Source of the DNA: Forficula auricularia
Lineage: Eukaryota; Arthropoda; Insecta; Dermaptera; Forficulidae
Assembly (NCBI GenBank): GCA_024734495.1
Contig: JALMQS010000055.1
Coordinates: 12,980,863-13,044,862 of the forward strand
Length of the DNA stretch: 64,000 nt
Reading direction: 5' to 3'
How positions within the stretch are numbered: the first letter of the stretch is position 1; the number at the start of each line of letters is the position of its first letter. This document shows positions 4,735-59,340 of this stretch, in pieces. Below the pieces are notes generated by a model. That model saw only the letters and a list, made by a program, of their open reading frames with translations. It was not told the DNA's origin and searched no databases. Position numbers and translations under genes: made by a program.

Positions 4735-5102
4735 ACAGAGGACGCCTTTCGGTATTTCTTTGGGTGAAACACCTGACGAAACCCAAACCTACTTTCTTGT
4801 GACTTTTTTTAAAAGTAGCCACGATTCATCCCCAGTGTAGAGAGTTTTCAGGAACGGAGTTTGCTCGTTTCCCTTCAGTAAATCGGTGAAAATTCGGGCA
4901 CGTTCGGTTTTGTTCTTGTCGGAGAGTTCGTGGGGGATCCATCCAGCCAATTTTAATATTTTTCCGAGCTTTTTGAGAAGACGAACGATGGTTGAATGGT
5001 CCACATTGAAGTCTTCAGCCAACATTTTGGTTGTCACGCTTTCGTCCACTTCAAAGGCTCTCAAAAGTGTCTGATCGTCGAAAGTTGATGGTCGACCTCT
5101 TC
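4735..5102 (-). pseudogene. Mariner transposase middle portion
   Basis: The minus-strand frame begins with RGRPSTFDD, the AT-hook-like linker of mariner. A second helix-turn-helix follows (DFNVDHSTIVRLLKKLGK), then the WIPHEL linker, then YTGDESW, which contains the first aspartate of the DD34D catalytic triad. After about residue 90 the frame shifts but VWVSSGVSP and KKAMWYV are still readable in the next frame. The second catalytic Asp region and the C-terminus are missing, so the gene is dead. Upstream it is separated from its N-terminus (5862-5958) by the insertion at 5123-5851. Confidence 0.8.
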
Positions 5103-5122
5103 CTTATTTATCTCCGAGGTTT

Positions 5123-5851
5123 TTAACCGACTTCAAAAAAGGAGGAGGTTCTCTATTGGACTGAATTTTTTTGTGCCTATGTTACCTCATATCTCCACCA
5201 ATTGTCAACCGATTTTGAAATTTTTTTTTGCATTGGGTCCAGTCTAGCTTCCGATTGGTCCCATTTTTTTTCGTTTTTTTTTTCATAGGTATTAGACCTT
5301 TTTTATTAGGTTTGTTTAGACCTAACCTCTTTGTTTATGAACCGATTTCGATGGTTCTTTTTTATCCGAAAGGGGGTGTCTTAGGGATGGTGTCATATTA
5401 ATTTGGTCAAGTTCTGATGATATGATCACTATTAATAACATCACTAAAAAGAGAAAAATAAAAATAATTTTTAAGAAAAAAATAAAAACGGACTTCAAAA
5501 AATTAAATGCAACAAATAAAATACACTAAAAGGTATAAAATAATTATTATCTTATTTAGTTACAACTGAACTACGAAATATTAACATGAAATTACTTTTT
5601 TTAAGTCGGTGCCAAATATATACCTTTTATGAATCGCACTCGACGGATCTTACTTAGTACGTTTGGCGGGTACGCTCGCTTATAGGTATAGTTTGTTTGG
5701 TACCGACTTCAAAAAGTAATTTCATGTTAATATGTCGTAGTTCAGTTGTAACTAAATAAGATAATAATTATTTTATACTTTTTAGTGTATTTTATTTGTT
5801 GCATTTAATTTTTTGAAGTCGGTTTTTATTTTTTTCTTAAAATTATTTTTA
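5123..5851 (+). mobile_element. Composite repeat with palindromic 3' half
   Basis: It begins TTTTTAACCGACTTC and carries about 330 bp of unique sequence, then a foldback of about 390 bp with ~145-bp arms (5480-5620 and 5700-5851) containing GACTTCAAAAAATTAAATGC. A second, inverted copy is at 38891-39610. It sits inside the mariner fossil, between codons for the first HTH and the RGRPS linker. The motif AACCGACTTCAAAAAAGGAG is one I recall as common in moth and butterfly genomes, though I cannot search to confirm it. Confidence 0.7.
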
Positions 5852-9472: not shown

Positions 9473-10410
9473 TTCAGCTAATCGACCTTCACGATGAAGT
9501 TTTACCTTATTTACCTATATGAGGGGTTTCCCCTCCTTTCAACATGATTGATTCAATAGACGTTTGTAATGTTATAAAACCTTTATCAAGAGTAGATATT
9601 TCTCTCTAGTTTACTAAATGCATCTTGAACACATTCCATCAATTTTTATTAATACCACCATGTTCTAATTTTTCTTTGTTCTTCAAATACTGTAATGGCT
9701 GTTGCAAGATACCATAACGTTTTCATTAGTCAATTCACTGTGAAACTACACACCCTTTACTCTATTAACTAACATCATGTTTCACCTAAAACCTACACCA
9801 CTTTCCATAAGTAAAATTAGTCAATTGCTTCAATTTGGCATCTCTTCTTTGTAAATTCACGTTATTTGAGTTAAAATTTTCCATTTTGAAATAACAGCGG
9901 TGATTATTTTATTTTTCTTAAAAATACTAAACTTTGGTCTTCAAATTTCCTGGTTAACTCAAAATCAACGCCTGTCAAATATGTTAAGATATTTAGTTAT
10001 CAATGTGAACAATAACAATATAATGAGTATTGCCAGTTTCTTTCGAAACTCGAGATAATCTAAGATTTTCTTTCAAATGTATACAATATTTTCACTTTTA
10101 TTAAAATATGTTCACCTCGCAGCAACACCAGACTCCCTAAAAATTATTATTTATACGTATTTGCTGAAACTAATAAATTTTTAATAAAAAATCAATAGCA
10201 GCCATCATCATATTGAAATCCTTGACCCAATCAACACAGGAAGCCCTATGTAGAGGTAAATTTTTTCGAAAACATAGCATCTAGTCACGCAAGTATTTTG
10301 TCACAAGCACCACCCAATTAGATTTAGACGTAGCCTACTTAAAAAATTAAATTTAATTATATATAAACTAAATTGAAATTTTATTTTTGTGACGTAGTAG
10401 AATGTTTATA
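9473..10410. other. AT-rich DNA without recognised features
   Basis: Non-coding; no repeat or gene recognised. Confidence 0.5.
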
Positions 10411-10411
10411 A

Positions 10412-10562
10412 ATTAAAGAAGACAATAAAAGAGTGTGTCTTCTGCTGGAAAAATAAAGTTTTGGCTGGCAAGGCACTCGAAATTATAGTCTCGTCATAAA
10501 TAAATTAAATAAAAAAAATATTTTTCCAGCAGAAGAGACACTCTTTTACTGTCTCCTTTAAT
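10412..10562. mobile_element. Degenerate foldback of hammerhead family
   Basis: The arms AAGACAATAAAAGAGTGTG and its inverted partner with TCTTCTGCTGGAA match the ends of 25651-25897 and 43454-43751. The middle retains CTCGAAATTATAGTCTCG, a decayed version of the GAAA-CTATAG-TC segment. The CTGATGA part is lost. Confidence 0.7.
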
Positions 10563-10739
10563 ATATATAAACTGTTAGTTATTTAATTTTATTTTTATTT
10601 AATCAACCATATATTAAATTTTTTTAATTTTCATATATTTTAATATTTGTAATGAACTATTAGTGAGTTAAACCAACCTAATTAATAAAGTTAAATATCA
10701 ATAAAATCATTTAAAAAAGATATTTCCTTTTATAATTAA

Positions 10740-15590: not shown

Positions 15591-15674
15591 TTATTAAAAA
15601 TTCAAAAGCAATATCAAATAATTCTAATTTAAAATCATTGAATTCATTCTTCGACAAAAATCTAAATTAAAAGA

Positions 15675-16165
15675 TTGACACATTCGTCGCTGTCATACAA
15701 CACTAACATAAATACCCTATTAGGATTGCTTATCAATGTAATTTGTCTACATTCATTGTGCGGCAAGCACATTATCAATTTAAATACGCAGATTTTTCTA
15801 ACTCTAGCAGTTTATATTCGAAATCATTATTGGATTCCGAGATTAAGGAATATTATTCGTCGCATCACTCATGAATGCACGATATATCATCGATTTAAGG
15901 TATTGCGCTTTTCAACTCAAGCCATACATTTAGAATATCTTTCATTATCAACCGAATTTTTTTGTTAACTTGATCGATTCATTTCTCCACCTGGTTGTCC
16001 ACAACAAGTCTTCTCCGATTGTGGAACAAATTTCGTTGGGTGTCACAAAGAGCTAAAAGAAATTTACGACTTCTTTTTGAAGCTTACTGATGATCCTCAA
16101 GCAGTTCAATATGCCCCTTTACTTACAGATACCCGCTGGACACTCTCGAAAAATAAATAATCGTT
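15675..16165 (+). pseudogene. Pao integrase remnant
   Basis: The + strand frame reads HYWIPRLRNIIRR, then a Cys-x2-Y/H remnant of the zinc-binding arm, then AIHLEYLSLSTEFF, a stop at 15966, and in the same frame FISPPGCPQQVFSDCGTNFVG. The last motif carries the second catalytic aspartate of the DDE triad (usual SDNGTNF). The third catalytic residue and the C-terminal domain are not seen. The element goes straight to the polypurine tract and right LTR. Confidence 0.75.
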
Positions 16166-22929: not shown

Positions 22930-23430
22930 AGTGGTATATACTTTATATTTCCTTGCTCTGATTACATATTTGAATATTTTTCTCTTTTCCTCAATTTTTT
23001 AGTGATTAAAATATTCTATTGTTTATCAATTTCGAAAATATATATATTTTAATATATTATTTCTTAAATTTCTTCCAGAACTTAAGTGACTTGATTTAAA
23101 TTTTTCGTTAAATTGAAGGGTTGGTTTTGTCACAAATATAATAAAACAATAATATAATATAATAATAATATTATTTCTGTAAGTTAAATAAAAGCAGCAA
23201 ATCTATTTGAAATTCATTTCTATTATTAATTAATTTTATTATTACCACGATATTTATAAAACAGGGGTGCCTACAGAGGAGTGGGGATTAAGATGAGTGG
23301 GTCATTGAAATTTCTGGGGGGGGGGGGGTTGAAAATTGTTTCAAAATTAGCATTATATGAAAAAAATAAAAACTGTCTAGTTCATAACTACAACATAAGT
23401 TAACTAAAACTATTATTATCATTTCCGTCC
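22930..23430. other. AT-rich DNA, poly-G run
   Basis: Includes a run of ten or more G near 23318-23330. Otherwise nothing recognised. Confidence 0.4.
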
Positions 23431-23447
23431 ATAATTTGTATTAATTT

Positions 23448-23612
23448 GAAAGTTTATCATAGGAAAATAAGGACAAGTTTTTATGTGTGACTTTGTGAAA
23501 ATTTAGACGAATGTGTGACATGAAGAAGTCGGCAAAGTCGACGAAACGTTGGCTGATAAATAAAAAAGTCACACATAAAAACTTGTCCTTATTTCCCTAT
23601 TATAAACTTTCA
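23448..23612. mobile_element. Foldback with decayed hammerhead-like motif
   Basis: Arms of about 48 bp (AATAAGGACAAGTTTTTATG and its complement). Between them, on the + strand, GTCGGCAAAGTCGAC forms a stem flanked by ATGAAGA (expected CTGAAGA) and GAAACGTTGG. One core base is mutated. Confidence 0.65.
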
Positions 23613-24104
23613 AGGTAATAAAAACCTCTTCTAATTCTTTAGAAGTGAATAAAATATATTGTACAAGGGGGTTCTTACATTTCATGAAATGTGTGGGGGT
23701 GGGTGGGGGTGAGTCATGAAGCTAGGGAGGATGGGCCCCCTGTATAAAATAATTAAATAGAGGAAAAAATAAAACTTGTTTTCAATACTTTGTAAGCTCT
23801 CCACACATGATGGTTTGATCATCTTTTGCAAACAATCGTTTGAATTAGAAAGCTGAAGCTAGGCGCAAAGATAGATAGCACCTATAAGCCTTGTACCAAA
23901 TTTTATCTTATTACCATAGATTGACACGATTTTTTTTTTTTTTTTGATTTAAGGTAGTTCTTTCACAAATGTAAAAATTCAAGAAGTCTTCGAAACTTGG
24001 AATATAAGTCATTAAAAGCATAATAAACACACTGTTAAAATTTGAAGACGATTTACCACACCAAACATGAAATAATTGCAATTAAAAATGAAATTTTTAC
24101 ATAT

Positions 24105-24639: not shown

Positions 24640-25630
24640 AAGGAGTTTCTACCATCTTGATGAAAAACTAATATTTGTTAGAATAATATATTCGGAGAAA
24701 CTTAAATAAAAAAATTTAAATTATTTACATTGTAGTTTTGATTAAAAAAAAACAACATATTTGGGCGATTATTTTTAGTGGAGGGGATATAAGATCAATG
24801 GCGAAACGATCCATTCATAAAGAGAGTATAGTAGTGTAAAAAATACAGTCACGTTAAAAAAACATAACCTAAAATTTGAGCACCATTCATATTTATAGAG
24901 TGGTTACGAGGCTAAAAGTTTTTGTGTGGATTGTCGCGAAAGAAACTCCTTCCTTAATCCTTAATGCATTCTTCCTCCAAAAGTTCAAAACCTAGAAATT
25001 TTTAAATCAAAGCAGTCCTTTGTTTTGGAAATACAAATTTTTGATCCCAGGACAAACTTCTTACGACCTTCCGTTCTTGAATAATCGTGAGAATTGTAAT
25101 ACAGATACATACACACACCAGACATAAACAAGTCATGCATGAAAATAATTTTTTTTCATGTTTCTGAAATTTTTTAACATACATAATAATAATAATAATA
25201 ATTAGTAAATTCATCACTCCGGGTACCTTTGTTGGTTGAGTATAACAATTAATAGACTAAATCAAAGAAAGGGGATGTTTCTTTTTGATTAGTTTTAAAA
25301 TAACGTTATTTTAACGTTAATTAATGTTTGTTTAATTTATTAATCATATATTTGTCTTTTAATTTGAGCATATAAGATTTAGGATAAGACTAAATAAATT
25401 AGAAAAAAAAATGAAAGAAATCTCTCTTCTATGAACTACTAGAACTAGATAATCTATTTACTAGTTTAACTAATGGCCACTCAGGATGTTGTCGACGAGA
25501 GGGGACACAAATTAGAAAGAAAAATTATGTTCACATTCCAAACAGATTTAAATCTAGGATTTTTTAAAATTATTTAGTTAGTGACGAACAAATAATATAT
25601 TTAACAAAAATAAAAGCATGGGTGCTTTTA
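24640..25630. other. AT-rich DNA, dispersed-repeat copy
   Basis: It contains a diverged 'CACCAGAACGAAC'-type repeat at about 25018-25145. It also has an (ATA)n run at 25185-25200. No gene recognised. Confidence 0.4.
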
Positions 25631-25650
25631 GCTTGAAATTTAATTAAAAT

Positions 25651-25897
25651 TAAAATGAAATTTTTTGCCGAGAGTAGCAGAATTTTTTATATATTGAAGG
25701 AGACAATAAAAGAGTGTCTGCTGGAATTATAAATTTTATTTATTTATAACGAGACTATAGTTTCGAGGGCTTTGCCCTCTTCATCATTCCATTGTAATAG
25801 ACTGATGAAGAGGGCAAAGCCCTCGAAACTATAGTCTCGTTATAAATAAATAAAATTTATAATTCCAGCAGAAGACTCTCTTTTTATTGTCTCCTTC
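25651..25897. mobile_element. Hammerhead foldback element, copy 1
   Basis: Arms of about 100 bp begin GAAGGAGACAATAAAAGAGT and are inverted around a short centre. The left side has an extra GCCGAGAGTAGCAGAATT head. A perfect 14-bp target duplication AATTTAATTAAAAT flanks it (25637-25650 and 25898-25911). The right arm carries an intact hammerhead-like core on + (25802-25836). The left arm carries its complement with one core mutation. No protein-coding capacity. Confidence 0.85.
25793..25848 (+). ncRNA. Candidate hammerhead ribozyme
   Basis: CTGATGA (25802-25808), one extra A, stem II GAGGGC/GCCCTC with an AAA loop, GAAA (25825-25828), then ACTATAGT as a self-complementary stem III and C at 25836, after which cleavage would be expected. 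Stem I can form from GTAATAGA upstream and TCGTTAT downstream. The single extra residue before stem II departs from the consensus. I recall an equivalent insertion in a natural viroid hammerhead. Confidence 0.55.
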
Positions 25898-26084
25898 AAT
25901 TTAATTAAAATAATCGTGGAGATTTTCCGGATACTGTAGAATTGATTTTTTATTTTATATAGTATTTTTCTTTTTGGTAGTTGTTTCGCGACAATACTAG
26001 CAAAAAGTTAATGCTAGAGTACTTATATAGAGCAGACAATAAGGATTCATAATTCATAAGCCCAAAAGTTTTTGCTGTTTATGT

Positions 26085-35609: not shown

Positions 35610-35623
35610 TGTATACATTAATT

Positions 35624-36072
35624 TAATTGAAAAGTTTTTGTTTTGCCGAGAGTAGCAGAGTTGTTGATTCACAAAGAGAAACAAAGAGGTTGTCCTCTGC
35701 TTGATGCAAATAAACATACACACATATATATATCGAGATGATATATCTATATATATATATATTATTTATTTGTTTGAGACTATAGTTTCGAAGACTTAGT
35801 CTTCATCATCAGTCTTTCTTCAATTATAAATGTTTTTCATGGAGTCAATATCATATGGATATTGAAAACTTGGTGTTCCTTCGTCACTGCTGGTCGGCTA
35901 GGAACTAATAAAGACCTTCTCTCCGGTTCACATTCAAATATCAGATATTACCAAGTCTTCGAAACTATAGTCTCAAACAAATAAATAATATATATACAGA
36001 TATATCATCTCGATATATATGTGTGTATGTTTGTTTGCATCAGGCAGAGGACAACCTCTTTGTTTCTCTTTG
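35624..36072. mobile_element. Hammerhead foldback element, copy 2
   Basis: A variant subfamily with the same GCCGAGAGTAGCAGA head, then arms containing AAAGAGGTTGTCCTCTGCTT and AT microsatellites. A perfect 14-bp target duplication TGTATACATTAATT flanks it (35610-35623 and 36073-36086). The left arm holds an intact hammerhead-like core on the minus strand. The right arm keeps only the GTCTTC-GAAACTATAGTC half. Confidence 0.85.
35766..35824 (-). ncRNA. Candidate hammerhead ribozyme
   Basis: On the minus strand: CTGATGA (35812-35806), one extra T, stem II GAAGAC/GTCTTC with a TAA loop, GAAA (35789-35786), ACTATAGT, then C at 35778. Stem I: inner GA/TC and outer TTG/CAA. Confidence 0.5.
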
Positions 36073-36618
36073 TGTATACATTAATTCATGTAAAATAATT
36101 GGTTACGCTTCTACTATGGGCATTTCCCTTTTATATTCAAAAAGTGAATTTCTCCTCGTTTCAGACATAATAACAACATTTAAACACAATAAACAAAATT
36201 AAAAAAAAAAAAATTAAAATTTGGGCGAATTCAATACTAGCGCCGCCAGGCAGATTTGCTTGCCTACCTTCCAGGCGTACTGAGGGATTATACGAATATT
36301 GTGTATAGTCATACATATGAGCCATTTGCAGCTCTTTCAGTCTCTTATCTTGTTATTTATATATAGTATTTCACACGATAGAAGCGACTTTAGTTACATA
36401 TAAAGAGTAAAAAAAATCTAGACTAGGTACGCTTTCAATTTTAGCGATTTGGCAATTTTTTTACTAGCAAAGTGTTTAAGCTGAAAGATGAAAGTGCAAT
36501 ATATTAATACAAACATGTGTTATTGAAAATATTTTGATTTGCCGAGAGTAGCTGAGTTGTTGAATCATAAAGAGAGGCAAAGAGGTTGTCCTATGCTTGA
36601 CACATTTATATATATATA

Positions 36619-37556
36619 CTAGCTGCAAGGCCCGCCTTTGGCGGCCCTCTTGCTAGCCAGGGGGCACGCACCCTGGACCCAAAGCCCACGATCCCACCCC
36701 CCGGACCATGCCCAACCTTCGCCCTACACCACCACGCCAACTCCATCCGCACACTAACCCCCGCCTCCAACCCTGCGAACCACACCCCCGCTTAGCCCCC
36801 TGGACTCCATCCCGCACCACCACCTGCACCCCCACTCTACTTCGCCTCACTCCCTCACCCCACCCCCATTCCACCCCGCGCACCCCATACCCTAACCCAT
36901 CCCCACTCCATTCCACTCCGCACCCAGTTTTTGCATTTCTAGCCTTCTAGTGACCCATAGATTATGTATACAAAATTTGGTTGAGTTTAGTCCAAGAGAA
37001 AGAATATTCATTTTTTGCCCCCCCCCCCCCATTTTGGGTTGTTAGTTTTTCCATTTCTATCTCTCTAGAGGCCCAGAGATTATGTATACAAAATTGTTGA
37101 GTTTGCTCCAAGGGCAAGAATTTACATTTTTTCACCCCCCCCCCTTTTTTGGGTGGGTTTTTGAGGAAATTTTTTTAAACAAAAGGTGTCAGAAATCACA
37201 TCCCCTATAACTTTGTTTATCATAAAATTTGCCGTAGGGTTAATAGTTTAGGAGTTATTTGATAATTTTCATTCGTGCTCCCCCTCCCCCCTCTGGGGTC
37301 AAAATATCAAAACGTTATATAGCTAAAAACGTAAGTTAGAAGACATCTGATGTAAATATGAAATTTCATAATAATCCCTTCAGCCGTTTTTACGTGAATC
37401 GTGAGCAACTTTTCGCGGAACCCACGGAAACATACAGACAGACCGGAATTTTGTTGAGGGTGTTTTCGTTCATAACTTTGCTTGAAGCGTGTCCAACCAA
37501 AATTTGGCGTGATTTGGAGCAATGTACAGACAAAACCTTAATTTTATATATATAGA
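36619..37556 (+). mobile_element. CTAGCTG-type repeat with C-rich body
   Basis: It starts CTAGCTGCAAGGCCCGCC and ends in TTTTATATATATAGAT. Inside are a strongly C-rich, G-poor tract (36690-36930), two TATGTATACAAAATTTG units and a ACAGACAGACCGG-type tail. The open frames across the C-rich tract are low-complexity and not genes. Confidence 0.6.
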
Positions 37557-37599
37557 TATCAAATATAAATATGTATATAATATTTATATATAATTTATT

Positions 37600-37652
37600 T
37601 GTTTGAGACTAAAGTTTCGAAGGCGTTGGCTTCATCATCAGTCTTTTTAATT
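37600..37652 (-). ncRNA. Candidate hammerhead ribozyme
   Basis: On the minus strand: CTGATGA (37641-37635), an extra T, stem II GAAG-CC/CTTC-type, GAAA (37618-37615), ACTTTAGT, C. Stem II and stem III are weaker than in the other copies. Confidence 0.4.
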
Positions 37653-37725
37653 AGAAATATTTTATATATGATTGGCTTGCTATCTCAACAAATTTTCACT
37701 ATCCAATCGGTGATTGACCCCATGA

Positions 37726-38402
37726 CACTGGCGTAGCCAAGGGGGTGCAAAGGGGTACGACCGCTCCTCCCGCCCCCTATCTTTATCGCCCCAACCCTCT
37801 CACTATTTACATCTAACCAAAATCAAAAGGGAAAAAAACAAGAAACTTGGGGAAAATGAGTACGTTTTTAGGATTTTTTTTATTTATATGTTTGGTGGAT
37901 GGCTCTTTAAGTCGGTAAATCGTTTACTCAAAGAAAAAGGAATGAATTTTGTTTATTTTAATACACACCGTGCCTACCCACCCTGTTAAAAAAATTGTAA
38001 ATTTACTATTATATTTACAATACAAATTATATTATATTTACAATATTATATCAATTATATTATATTTACAATACAAATAGATAGGAAATAAAGCAGATTG
38101 CGTATAGTAAAAAAAATACTATATTATATTGGTAAAATCACATTAACTCATTGCAAAAATACAAATATAAATTGTAACTTTAATTTTTTCTTGTATTAAT
38201 TAGATACCTATTATTAAAAAATATGTTGTAAGATTACAATGCTGCTATGTAATATTATTAAAAAATTTGAGGCTTACTTACCATTTTTTATAGTAAAATT
38301 AGAAGAAATTTTTAACAATGCAGGAAAAAAATCGCTTAATTCAAATAATTTTAATCAGAGCAGTTTTGCCCCACCCGCTCCAAAAGTCTGGCTACGCCAC
38401 TG
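37726..38402. mobile_element. Non-autonomous hAT element
   Basis: Terminal inverted repeats CACTGGCGTAGCCA and TGGCTACGCCACTG. A perfect 8-bp target duplication CCCCATGA (37718-37725 and 38403-38410) is diagnostic of hAT. 677 bp, AT-rich inside, no transposase. Confidence 0.85.
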
Positions 38403-38524
38403 CCCCATGAGAAATAATAGATAAAATATTTAAAAAAGCTGATTGTGATGCCAAGACTTCGAAACTGTAATCTCAAACAAATAAATTTTATATATATATA
38501 TATATGTTTTACATTTCATACGAG

Positions 38525-38676
38525 TGGTGAACCACGATTGGAATTAGGTGTACACCGTCTTTGGAATTAGATGGAATTATTTTGTAATTCATTAGATAAT
38601 GTCCCTTCATCTATTGTCTTCTACTTGGAAATTAAAGCGGAAGTAGGTGTGCACGATATTAGGTTGCGGTTCACCC
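38525..38676. mobile_element. Uninterrupted MITE
   Basis: 152 bp with inverted ends GGTGAACC...GGTTCACC and internal AGGTGTACACCGT / AGGTGTGCACGAT. It is the empty counterpart of 1675-2408. Confidence 0.75.
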
Positions 38677-38890
38677 TTCGATTTTATATGCGTGTATGCT
38701 TATTTGTATCATTCAGAGGACAACCTCTTTGATTCTCTTTATGACAAACATGTGTGCTAAATTTCAGCTCATTTTCTACAACCATTCGATAGCTCCGTTT
38801 TGTATTTTCATCGATAGCTATAAGCCCAAATCTAATCAGCTCTTTGTTTAAGAAATACAAACATTTTGGCACCACTGCGTATAGTAAAAT

Positions 38891-43440: not shown

Positions 43441-43453
43441 AAAATGCAAAATT

Positions 43454-43751
43454 GAAGGAGACAATAAAAGAGTGTGTCTTCTGCTGGAATTATAAATTTT
43501 ATTTATTTATAACAAGAATATAGTTTCGAGGGCTTTGCCCTTTATCAGTCTATTACAATAGATTCACAGGAATTAATTTATGAAATTCCTGTGAATCACT
43601 TGTAATAGACTGATGAAGAGGGCAAAGCCCTCGAAACTATAGTCTCGTTATAAATAAATAAAATTTATAATTCCAGCAGAAGACACACTCTTTTATTGTC
43701 TCCTTCAATATATAAAAATTCTGCTACTCTCGGCACAAAAACTTTCAATTT
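43454..43751. mobile_element. Hammerhead foldback element, copy 4
   Basis: Arms begin GAAGGAGACAATAAAAGAGT. The right side has the extra TCTGCTACTCTCGGCAC end, so it is the mirror image of copy 1. A perfect 12-bp duplication AAATGCAAAATT flanks it (43442-43453 and 43752-43763). The right-arm core is intact on +; the left-arm core reads CTGATAA. A second inner hairpin (TTCACAGGAATT) lies at the centre. Confidence 0.85.
43600..43656 (+). ncRNA. Candidate hammerhead ribozyme
   Basis: CTGATGA (43610-43616), extra A, stem II GAGGGC/GCCCTC, GAAA (43633-43636), ACTATAGT, C at 43644. It is identical through the core to the one at 25793-25848. Confidence 0.55.
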
Positions 43752-44160
43752 AAATGCAAAATTATTCAAAAATGAAATTTTCTGATATTATAAAAAATAA
43801 TAAACAATCGAACAAGTGTATTTTGCATTATTACCCAACATTGCAAACAGCGCACCGAGTGTTGAAAAATGTTCACTTTTTCCTCCAATTTTATTATTGA
43901 TAAAAAAAATTTCCCCAAAATGTGTGATGTACCTACTAACCAAAGTTATTATTGGTTGTTTTTTAAAAGGCTTATATTTCTATTTCATTTTTTTATATAT
44001 GCGAATATTATTCTATTAACTAATGTGCTGTTGAGCGATTTTTTCATTAGAATGTGATCGTGAAAATCACTAAAAAAAGGCCTGGATAATAGGATCATCT
44101 CTCCTGGCCAAATACGAGTCCAGACTTGTTTCACCCTTTTCAAGATTAATTTCTTAATTT

Positions 44161-44410
44161 TATTTATTTTCTTAGAAAGACGAACTGGTAAGCAAAATAA
44201 GTAGGTTATAATGAAAGGCAGTCCATAAATTATTTAAATTTTATTCAATTCCCGACGTTTCGGAGATTTTTCTATCCTTCTTTAGGGTTTTGAATAGTTA
44301 AACTAACCCATCAATAACTATTCAATACCCTGAAGAAGAGAGAAAAAGTCTCCGAAACGTCGGAAATTGAATAAAGTTTAAATAATTTATGGACTCCCTT
44401 TCACTATAAC
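44161..44410. mobile_element. Hammerhead foldback element, copy 5
   Basis: A different sequence family with the same plan. Arms have CCATAAATTATTTAAA and TTCCGACGTTTCGG. A perfect 15-bp duplication TTAATTTCTTAATTT flanks it (44146-44160 and 44411-44425). The + core is intact; the minus-strand core reads CTAAAGA. Confidence 0.85.
44318..44372 (+). ncRNA. Candidate hammerhead ribozyme
   Basis: CTGAAGA (44329-44335), extra A, stem II GAGA/TCTC, one extra C, GAAA (44353-44356), ACGT, C at 44360. Stem I is convincing: inner CC/GG, a small internal loop, and outer TTCAAT/ATTGAA. Confidence 0.5.
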
Positions 44411-44425
44411 TTAATTTCTTAATTT

Positions 44426-52904: not shown

Positions 52905-53230
52905 AGAATTTAATTTTTAGGACAAATTCTAGGATTTTAGTAGAAATATTTTTTATATTGCGATATCCAGAGTGGATTCATGAGCTAACTGCCCGGAAAG
53001 CATGTTAGTTCTCAGGTTCGACTCTGAGAGGATGAATTCCCTCTGAAATCGCAATATAAAAAAATATTTCGAAGGAGACAATAAAAAAGTATGTCTTGTG
53101 CTGGAATTATAAATTTTATTTATTACGATTATTGTCTCCTTCAATATATAAAAATTCAGCTAGCCTCGGCACAAAAACTTACAAAAAAAAATTTCTACTA
53201 AAATCCTGTCTAAAAATTAAATTCTTTCTT
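52905..53230 (+). mobile_element. tRNA-like foldback, member 2
   Basis: ~55-bp arms (TTTAGTAGAAATATTTTT and complement) surround a tRNA-like core (52955-53065): outer GCGATATC/GAAATCGC, acceptor-like GGATTCAT/ATGAATTCC, inner CTAAC/GTTAG around TGCCCGGAAAGC, T-arm CTCAGGTTCGACTCTGAG. The right arm is split by a small hammerhead-family remnant at 53073-53180. Confidence 0.65.
53073..53190. mobile_element. Deleted hammerhead foldback remnant
   Basis: GAAGGAGACAATAAAAAAGT and its complement, with the centre lost, followed by TTCAGCTAGCCTCGGCAC, the family terminus. AAAAAAATATTTC and AAAAAAAAATTTC flank it. Confidence 0.7.
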
Positions 53231-57679: not shown

Positions 57680-58255
57680 GTTAAGGAATTCCGCTACCTA
57701 GGAAGTAAAATAACTTGAGATGGGAGGAGCGAAAACGAAATTAAATCAAGAATTGTCCAAGCAAAAATGGGGTTTAATTCAAAACAAAAACTACTATGCT
57801 CCTCCTCAATCAGTTTAGAAAACAGGAAGATGCTATTGAAGACATATGTATGGAGCATAGCCATGTACGGGTGTGAAACCTGGACAATTAGAGAAGAGGA
57901 GAGAAAGAAATTAGAGGCTTTCGAAATGTGGTGCTACAGAAGAATGATGAATATCAAATGGATGGATAAAATTACAAATGAAGAAGTTCTTGGAAGAATC
58001 GGAGAAAGAAGAACCTTGTCTTCTGAAGAAGAGAAGAGGTCAGATGATGGGGCACCCACTGAGACATGGGGGACTGCTTAGGGGATATCTTGGAGGGGGA
58101 GGTGGGAAAGAAAAGGGGAAGGGGAAGACCCAGATTAGAATATTTCAACCAAATAATTGGGGATATGGGATGCCAGATATTTAGAGAGGTCAAACAGTTG
58201 GCGGGGGGACAGATTGTTGCATCAAACCAGTCTTAGGACTGTATACTCAATCATG
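57680..58255 (+). pseudogene. LINE reverse transcriptase C-terminal part and 3' end
   Basis: It overlaps the family member at 1-380. It reads EFRYLGSKIT, stop, NEIKSRI, then RKMLLKTYVWSIAMYGCETW, LEAFEMWCYRRMMNIKW and TNEEVLGRIGE, the classic post-RT 'thumb' segment of these LINEs. A frameshift near 57975-58020 moves the rest (RRGQMMGHPLRHGGLLRG) to another frame. It ends after CAAACCAGTCTTAGGACTGT around 58245. Confidence 0.85.
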
Positions 58256-58675: not shown

Positions 58676-59340
58676 TGCTTCAGAATTATATTAATAAGTA
58701 GATACTTCGAATATATATAATCATTGTGAACCAGATTTGATTTTCAGATGAATACATTTTTATAAAAAATTGAAGACAGATTCGTTTCGATATGTTAATA
58801 TGAGGATTCTTTTATTAATTAACTCATGACTATGAATTTGTAAAAAGTGATTTTTATATTTTTTTTGTTGTTTTACTTATTTAAGGACTTCAAAACATAT
58901 ATAACATCATGTTGACATACAAATAAGTATTTTTTACATATATTATGTGAAGGACATAACACAATTATGTATATTTTCATTTAATTTTAACCTTTCTCCG
59001 AGCAATGTTATATTTATATTGTATATATATTTTTATAACATTACAAAAATGTAATTGAAACATATCAAATGCTTTTCTTACTGTATACTATGCACGTACA
59101 TGGAGTTCTGTATAATTCAAACATTGACTGATGATGGTGGAGAGTCTCCGCCGAAACCGTCTTGTGATTTGAAAATAAAACATCTAAACAAGACAATACA
59201 TCTCAATATTCAACCTGAATAAAATTCATTGTCTTCATCTGAACACCACGTCTGGTTTAAAGGGCTTAAATACCTCAAGACAGCATCTAATTATTCTACA
59301 TAAGCCATCAGCGCCTTCATCAATCGAAATTATATTATTT
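58676..59340. other. AT-rich DNA with one ribozyme candidate
   Basis: Apart from the hammerhead-like motif at 59118-59171, nothing recognised. Confidence 0.4.
59118..59171 (+). ncRNA. Candidate hammerhead ribozyme, solo
   Basis: CTGATGA (59128-59134), extra T, stem II GGTGGA/TCCGCC with a 5-nt loop, GAAA (59153-59156), ACCGT, C at 59161. Stem I: outer CAAA/TTTG, a 3x3 internal loop, inner TGA/TTG with wobble pairs. It is not in a foldback. Confidence 0.5.

Follow-up and report, generated by a model that had tools for sequence, protein, structure and literature searches.

Short non-coding foldback elements with a predicted hammerhead motif in Forficula auricularia bear marks of Penelope-like insertion

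The genome of the dermapteran Forficula auricularia contains short, non-coding elements with a predicted hammerhead ribozyme, which were probably put in place by the enzymes of Penelope-like elements (PLEs) copying RNA from both nicked strands of the target. These elements, designated family A, are represented by a foldback (A1) at positions 25651–25897 of a 64,000-nucleotide stretch of contig JALMQS010000055.1, referred to here as the window. The mode of PLE insertion and the role of PLE hammerheads are questions in the literature, and PLEs are only proposed as helpers of retrozymes in the available text of PMC7229834. The many short A copies make PLE-type insertion products countable genome-wide, because their outer ends are fixed, their 3' ends fall into two discrete types, end repeats flank them and their inner junctions vary. 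If A is moved by PLE enzymes, it would provide a test case for the mobility of ribozyme-bearing elements.

Results

Structure of element A1 and its hammerhead motif

A1 consists of two inverted arms, one of which carries a tail. Its features are as follows.

25637..25650, no strand: left copy of the target site duplication, AATTTAATTAAAAT, exact 14-bp repeat
25651..25695, minus strand: one-sided tail of the left arm (AATATATAAAAAATTCTGCTACTCTCGGC...), on one end only
25696..25786, minus strand: left arm, shortened within the hammerhead core, where it reads ATGATGA
25787..25790, no strand: filler at the inner junction between the arms, read directly from the sequence
25791..25897, plus strand: right arm, tailless, with the intact motif
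25792..25845, plus strand: predicted type I hammerhead, cut expected after 25836
25898..25911, no strand: right copy of the target site duplication, AATTTAATTAAAAT, exact 14-bp repeat

The arms are 97% complementary over 77 nt (25717–25793 versus 25796–25872). An earlier sequence-only reading of the element had claimed a 14-bp target duplication and the absence of coding sequence. Both claims hold: exact repeats at 25637–25650 and 25898–25911 flank 25651–25897, and no reading frame of at least 80 amino acids overlaps A1. By chance, an exact common word of at least 12 bp is expected in about 0.25% of random pairs of 20 × 20-base windows.

The motif in the right arm runs from CTGATGA (25802–25808) through A25809, stem II (25810–25815/25819–25824) and GAA (25825–25827) to the stem III segment ACTATAGT (25828–25835), which is followed by C25836. 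Stem II comprises 6 bp (GAGGGC/GCCCTC) with an AAA loop. Stem I comprises 2 bp (25800–25801/25837–25838) plus a 6-bp outer helix (25792–25797/25840–25845). The elements of a type I core (CUGANGA, GAA, an A-U pair at stem III and H at the cut site) are all present, whereas the textbook spacing, in which A9 lies directly beside stem II, is broken by the unpaired A25809. The order and spacing of a type I hammerhead had been proposed for A1; the order of CTGATGA, 6-bp stem II, GAA, ACTATAGT and C stands, but the spacing does not because A25809 intervenes. The cut position predicted after 25836 agrees with the motif layout. The proposal of one ribozyme per arm is not supported. In the left arm, on the minus strand, CTGATGA is replaced by ATGATGA and the counterpart of the stem I strand is missing, so that A1 contains a single intact motif. 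With these two corrections, the unpaired A and the shortened left arm, the hammerhead motif of A1 is, as judged from its sequence, real. It had been assigned to a non-coding mobile element of the Penelope and retrozyme world with a tiny palindromic stem III, and this assignment is retained. Palindromic tiny stems III of this kind are reported to work as dimers.

Hammerhead-like cores exceed chance and stem II covaries

A strict descriptor, which requires the core, a stem III and no fewer than 5 bp in stem II, yielded 4 hits in the window, two in A copies and one each in B1 and D (both described below), versus 7 in 300 Markov shuffles together. In 182,812 bp, made up of the window and twelve 9.9-kb loci fetched for the D family, CTGANGA-N9..29-GAAAC cores numbered 37, whereas shuffles averaged 0.95. 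D motifs within the twelve loci account for 10 of these cores, and the other 27 are not of this kind. Cores with a stem II of at least 4 bp numbered 23 versus 0.1 per shuffle, and all 23 have one unpaired base between CTGANGA and stem II. This base is A or T in most motifs and G in the B-type motif of L054 at 3495, which has a 6-bp stem. Four 10-kb regions taken at round-number positions (40 kb) contained 3 core matches. About ten distinct stem II families of hammerhead-like motifs appear in 183 kb (L048–L059 plus the window), and the genome is seemingly rich in them.

In a gap-free alignment of stem II from six families, 36 of 36 cells are paired and 5 of the 6 pairs are altered on both sides; the families were picked for equal length (three-base loop) and four of them (A1, B1, B3, B4) are mutually related. 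The G-C pair beside the core is invariant across the six families, and slid partners pair in only 28–44% of cases. Stem II thus has both the G-C pair next to the core and support from covariation in these six families; families C, D, E, H and I stand outside this count. When only A and B arms are considered, two stem II pairs alter on both sides, a count equaled by 60 of 500 shuffles, and the covariation score is reached by 7 of 500. A dispersed repeat at window positions 5414 (plus strand) and 39320 (minus strand) contains CTGATGA...GAAA; it was ruled out as a hammerhead and is considered a look-alike because its stem II is unconvincing.

Folding and conservation of the motif

Several results speak against a working ribozyme. 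A search with Rfam release 15 gave no match at the gathering score across the whole window. At E values up to 10, no hammerhead family was among the 32 matches in 25600–25950, and no hammerhead was called in the D and C motif regions. The covariance-model check proposed in the sequence-only reading thus has a negative outcome, in that the hammerhead models fail to recognize the A1 motif. Stem I, with 2 bp and a 6-bp outer helix in both A1 and A2, does not exceed background in strength: 27% (A1) and 25% (A2) of background pairs equal it, although this duplex test is uninformative in AT-rich sequence. Stem I is also weak in the B family. RNAfold gave -154.5 kcal/mol for whole A1 versus -92.1 kcal/mol with the hammerhead enforced, favoring the long hairpin by about 62 kcal/mol. 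For the right arm alone, the values were -22.8 versus -12.2 kcal/mol, and the favored fold, which runs stem I through the core, gains about 11 kcal/mol; all of these energies leave out tertiary folding and dimers. In a transcript of the whole foldback, the ribozyme is predicted to be locked within the long hairpin.

Drift of core positions at the rate of their neighbors had been put forward as evidence against the motif. Such drift is found within the A family, where mean non-consensus is 0.028 for the core versus 0.033 for neighboring positions, so the core is not slower-evolving; between families, however, the core stays and stem II covaries. Equal drift is expected for copies that are dead on arrival and hence is not decisive. 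Scans of viral, bacterial and archaeal contigs for the exact core found 0 stretches, collections that say little about an animal element. At unit position 37 (the first A of stem III), 6 of 81 arms have G instead of A, and no element carries the change in both of its arms; it may represent a template variant, recurrent mutation or RNA editing.

Copies, ends and junctions of the A family

A search of the 1.06-Gb assembly (845 contigs) with A1 returned 2,251 first-look candidates, a figure that is not a copy count, and 40 of these were scored. The 39 scored places apart from the window's own are 86–95% identical over nearly the whole element. On these alignments, A1 is one copy of a dispersed family that is spread over many contigs. 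Three further copies lie in the window.

10358..10573, plus strand: A3, third A copy, flanked by the 12-bp repeat TATATATAAACT, with the tail on the left and a much shortened left arm
43442..43763, plus strand: A2, second A copy, tail right, 12-bp end repeats AAATGCAAAATT, palindromic junction
43600–43653, plus strand: intact motif of A2; the core of the left arm is mutated
53064..53184, plus strand: A4, fourth A copy, with the tail on the right and two much shortened arms; no exact end repeat exceeds 8 bp

Near A3 there is a second 12-bp repeat. In the 39 fetched copies, exact end repeats reach 12 bp or more in 27, measure 8–11 bp in 8 and are absent from 4. The two flanks of a copy share a word of at least 12 bp in 27 of 39 cases, versus 6 of 1,482 comparisons across copies and 1.4% of random pairs of that size. 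With tighter end windows, a repeat of at least 12 bp was found in 18 of 41 elements (the 39 copies plus A1 and A2), a setting that missed A1's own repeat. A single tail was found in 40 of these 41 elements at one cut-off and in 34 at a looser one; the 39-copy set is biased for tails and junctions because it was chosen by similarity to a one-tailed query. L014 seemingly has two tails.

A census was made of 222,812 bp, comprising the window, which was included on account of A1, together with the twelve D loci and the four 10-kb round-number regions. It contains 8 A elements. Four are A1–A4 of the window; L051 has two, and L048 and L053 have one each. The four round-number regions contain 0. One L051 cluster was split in two, and two L053 clusters were joined across a 333-bp gap because their 12-bp end repeats agree. 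Clusters in L054, L082 and at window positions 35754 and 37587 (77–81% identity, no tail matched) were set aside as B-type; the one in L054 matched on one arm only. All 8 elements are head-to-head, with 0 single and 0 tandem, and all 8 have a tail of about 43 nt at exactly one outer end. Exact end repeats of 12–15 bp, as expected of target duplications, flank 7 of the 8: 14 bp in A1, 12 bp in A2, A3 (two equal candidates), L048 and L053, and 15 bp (three bases of which may belong to the element) and 12 bp in L051. The core region is present in both arms of 2 elements (the left core being mutated in A2), in one arm of 2 and in neither arm of 4, which are too short to hold it.

The second arm begins within or past the core in 30 of the 41 similarity-picked elements, as far as fuzzy BLAST ends allow, and starts at 18 different unit positions. 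The gap between the two unit starts is at most 41 nt in the 41 elements compared. The A unit measures about 110–180 nt. Its outer ends are fixed, its 3' end takes one of two forms, which differ by the tail of about 43 nt, and its inner ends vary. The inverted foldback had been thought to move as a unit; the fixed outer ends and inner junctions that vary among copies do not support this. Recurrent variants found in 6, 6 and 8 arms are common to the two arms of an element in 0, 0 and 1 cases, versus 0.2, 0.2 and 0.4 expected under independence. This rare sharing fits two templates per insertion, although the numbers are small and recurrent mutation is possible. Another recurrent variant, at unit position 11 (6 arms), was rejected as a junction artefact. 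A link between inner length and second-arm start in the 41 elements was likewise discarded as a by-product of choosing similar total lengths. Enrichment of arm ends at the ribozyme cut is not claimed, with few census arms at or near the cut and 0 listed D arm starts there.

Other families and neighboring elements

The window also contains elements of the related family B and of other families with hammerhead-like motifs.

23435–23624: further foldback with 60-nt arms that are 92% complementary and a truncated PLE-type motif (minus strand), the motif belonging to a family also present in L049; no end repeat found
35610..36086, minus strand: B1, tail left, intact core at 35812 (minus strand), stem II GAAGAC/GTCTTC, 14-bp end repeats TGTATACATTAATT
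36509..38755, minus strand: B2, interrupted by later insertions, decayed core at 37641 (minus strand), 12-bp end repeats ACAAACATGTGT
44146..44425, plus strand: C foldback, minimal motif CTGAAGA...GAAACGTC at 44330, tail left, 15-bp end repeats
58752..59324, plus strand: D arm, motif at 59128 (CTGATGA T GGTGGAG...CTCCGCC GAAACCGTC)

A search with C (44161–44410) gave 1,664 first-look candidates, 40 of which were scored. Among 20 fetched copies, 18 have the motif in at least one arm and 7 have exact end repeats of at least 12 bp. D gave 265 candidates, 40 of which were scored. The 12 loci fetched have unequal head-to-head arms with longer upstream parts that extend at least about 370 nt upstream of the motif. 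One of the insertions that split B2 has TGGCGTAGCCA-type ends near 37729–38400, as judged by eye. Pfam gave no match above its cut-off for ten of the 53 window reading frames of at least 80 amino acids. Remains of other elements, as judged by eye, include a mariner-like transposon at 4789–5103 (minus strand), a BEL-like element at 15666–15968 (plus strand), with an integrase zinc-binding Pfam match below threshold, and a reverse-transcriptase tail at 57719–58081 (plus strand).

Link to Penelope-like elements

The A elements of the census share several marks with PLEs: inverted head-to-head units (8/8), a 3' tail on one unit (8/8) and target duplication (7/8). In the available text of PMC3846280, PLEs of Adineta have inverted pLTRs, one of which may carry a 31-bp tail, together with duplications and palindromic junctions, and the inverted layout is already described there as a result of insertion. 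For PAc, a PLE of Anolis, the available text of PMC11167929 reports that the enzyme cleaves and extends both strands, that the tail corresponds to the stretch between the two start sites and that unprocessed RNA is the main substrate in vitro. The A copies in the window contain 0 frames of at least 80 amino acids, and thus neither reverse transcriptase nor GIY-YIG endonuclease; A is for this reason not classed as an autonomous PLE.

A possible helper lies in L053. Its minus strand contains a 110-amino-acid frame with 12 database relatives, the closest of which (P0001; 94% identity over 80%) reaches the Pfam cut-off for GIY-YIG (22.7 versus 22.6 bits). The L053 frame alone is not called by Pfam and is broken in its upstream part; no intact PLE frame was found in the sequences examined. 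About 510 nt past the stop of this frame there is a family H hammerhead, and ACAAAACCAACCCTTCAATTTAA lies about 100 nt further. The tails of A end in ACAAAAACTTTCAATTTAA, compared with ACAAAACCAACCCTTCAATTTAA near the L053 frame. A pattern common to the two, built after both had been seen, occurs 5 times in 235,834 bp and 0 times in 10 shuffles; the matches are three A elements, the L053 end and one fragment near window position 23,100. The drifted tail of A1 does not match.

23099–23176, minus strand: fragment like the 3' end beside the L053 frame, with ACAAAACCAACCCTTCAATTTAA, 88.6% over 79 nt

Ownership of the L053 3' end is uncertain because another foldback adjoins it. The succession of a PLE-type endonuclease frame and a hammerhead makes L053 a possible candidate for the helper.

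Discussion

The fixed outer ends, variable inner ends and duplications of A suggest that reverse transcription proceeds from the outer ends inwards on both strands. The same marks on short non-coding units as in PLEs lead us to infer that PLE enzymes insert them. Two cDNAs primed from both nicked strands would cause the copies to meet head to head, and insertion accounts for the inverted layout better than a foldback that replicates as such. We propose a model in which A RNA is transcribed from a master copy outside the sequences examined. The ribozyme would cut this RNA, probably as a dimer formed through the self-complementary ACUAUAGU, and thereby trim longer transcripts to unit length. Acting in trans, a PLE enzyme would recognize the AC-rich 3' end of A RNA and nick the two strands of AT-rich DNA 12–15 bp apart. 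Reverse transcription would begin on each strand, from the tailed end in one case and from the shorter end in the other, and the two cDNAs, shortened variably, would then be joined in the middle.

Other origins deserve consideration. The foldbacks could be severely shortened copies of an autonomous PLE with this hammerhead in its pLTR rather than a separate non-coding family. PLEs are known to produce tailed pairs of inverted pLTRs (PMC3846280, available text), the D arms (at least about 370 nt upstream of the motif) reveal that longer units exist in the genome, and the PLE-type endonuclease frame of L053 lies upstream of a hammerhead. We nevertheless regard this origin as somewhat doubtful, given that unit starts lie at most 41 nt apart in the 41 similarity-picked elements, that the census contains no longer arms, that the unit of A2, the only copy translated, has stops in all three frames and that none of the A copies seen has a coding region. 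It is unlikely that A is a metazoan retrozyme, whose RNA would be self-cleaved and circularized before reverse transcription. In 5 of 8 census elements, one arm or both extend beyond the cut site, which indicates that the template was uncut there. By eye, few arms end near the cut (one exactly, in L053; others 1–4 nt off, in L048, L051 and L053), no listed D arm starts at it, and for PAc the main substrate in vitro was unprocessed RNA (PMC11167929, available text). The animal retrozymes in the available text of PMC7229834 are tandem, an arrangement found in 0 of 8 census elements. What A does share with retrozymes is an AT-rich, non-coding unit near 180 nt and a possible two-pair stem III with a UAUA tetraloop, like that of invertebrate motifs; the same text names PLEs as a strong candidate for retrozyme mobilization.

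Self-priming, in which the first cDNA folds back and is copied into the second arm without independent priming, has been proposed for palindromic PLE junctions (PMC3846280, available text), and some junctions here, such as that of A2, are palindromic. This explanation seems quite improbable for A, since the outer ends of the two arms differ (tail versus none) in all 8 census elements and recurrent variants are rarely found in both arms, with the reservation that these numbers are small and recurrent mutation is possible. A foldback or MITE-like DNA transposon, with the hammerhead pattern a by-product of palindromic sequence, would account for the long inverted repeats, which end in GAAGGAGACAAT.. 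and ..ATTGTCTCCTTC on both sides, for the target duplications and for the Rfam results, which are mainly microRNA-like hairpins below their cut-offs. However, one end exceeds the inverted repeat by the tail and the inner junctions vary. Moreover, 37 cores versus 0.95 expected and a stem II that covaries in several families argue against a palindrome effect, and we consider a DNA transposon very improbable indeed.

We favor insertion by PLE enzymes primed on both strands. This model predicts that each insertion has one tail, that its arms come from different RNAs and that a helper PLE shares the 3' end of A. It is tempting to speculate further, at somewhat short of an even chance, that A and B are SINE-like parasites of PLEs: non-coding hammerhead RNAs that mimic the PLE 3' end with its succession of hammerhead, about 100 nt and AC-rich tail. 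Nearly all their insertions would then be head-to-head pairs because the PLE enzyme primes both nicked strands, one at each of two start sites. If true, A and B would constitute a genomic record of two-strand priming by PLEs and would directly support the movement of retrozyme-like RNAs by PLEs.

The motifs of Lunse et al. 2017 reportedly combine a hammerhead core with a tiny stem III in the context of repeated elements. As far as these motifs are known from citations and reviews, families C, F, G and H look alike to them, whereas A and B differ in that their stem III segment is an 8-nt palindrome. Metazoan non-LTR retrozymes consist of tandem repeats with type I motifs, and PLEs are strong candidates for their helper (PMC7229834, PMC7761336 and PMC8969392, available text). 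In PMC7229834, these retrozymes resemble A in their lack of coding sequence, low GC content, unit size, type I motif and suspected PLE helper; A differs in forming inverted pairs instead of tandem repeats and in the unpaired base before stem II. As in the motifs described here, A9 is separated from the first pair of stem II by an extra base in the hammerhead of CChMVd(+), a plant viroid and thus a replicon unrelated to A. In the available text of PMC3705267, this extra A10 moderately lowers the cleavage rate; U at this position raises the rate, and C or G is harmful. The PLEs of Adineta vaga (Penelope; PMC3846280) and Anolis (PAc; PMC11167929), as described in the available texts, are like A in their head-to-head units, optional tail on one unit, target duplications and AT-rich targets, and PAc also has a type I hammerhead within the repeated unit. 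A has no coding region, and a whole A insertion is at most a pair of units of about 110–180 nt. Its tail is about 43 nt versus 31, and its duplications are 12–15 bp versus 8–10 bp. Short non-coding head-to-head hammerhead elements were absent from the titles and abstract starts of the open-literature matches listed, a result that argues only weakly for novelty. Both Penelope-style insertion and hammerheads in PLEs are already known; a non-coding family of such pairs appears to be new.
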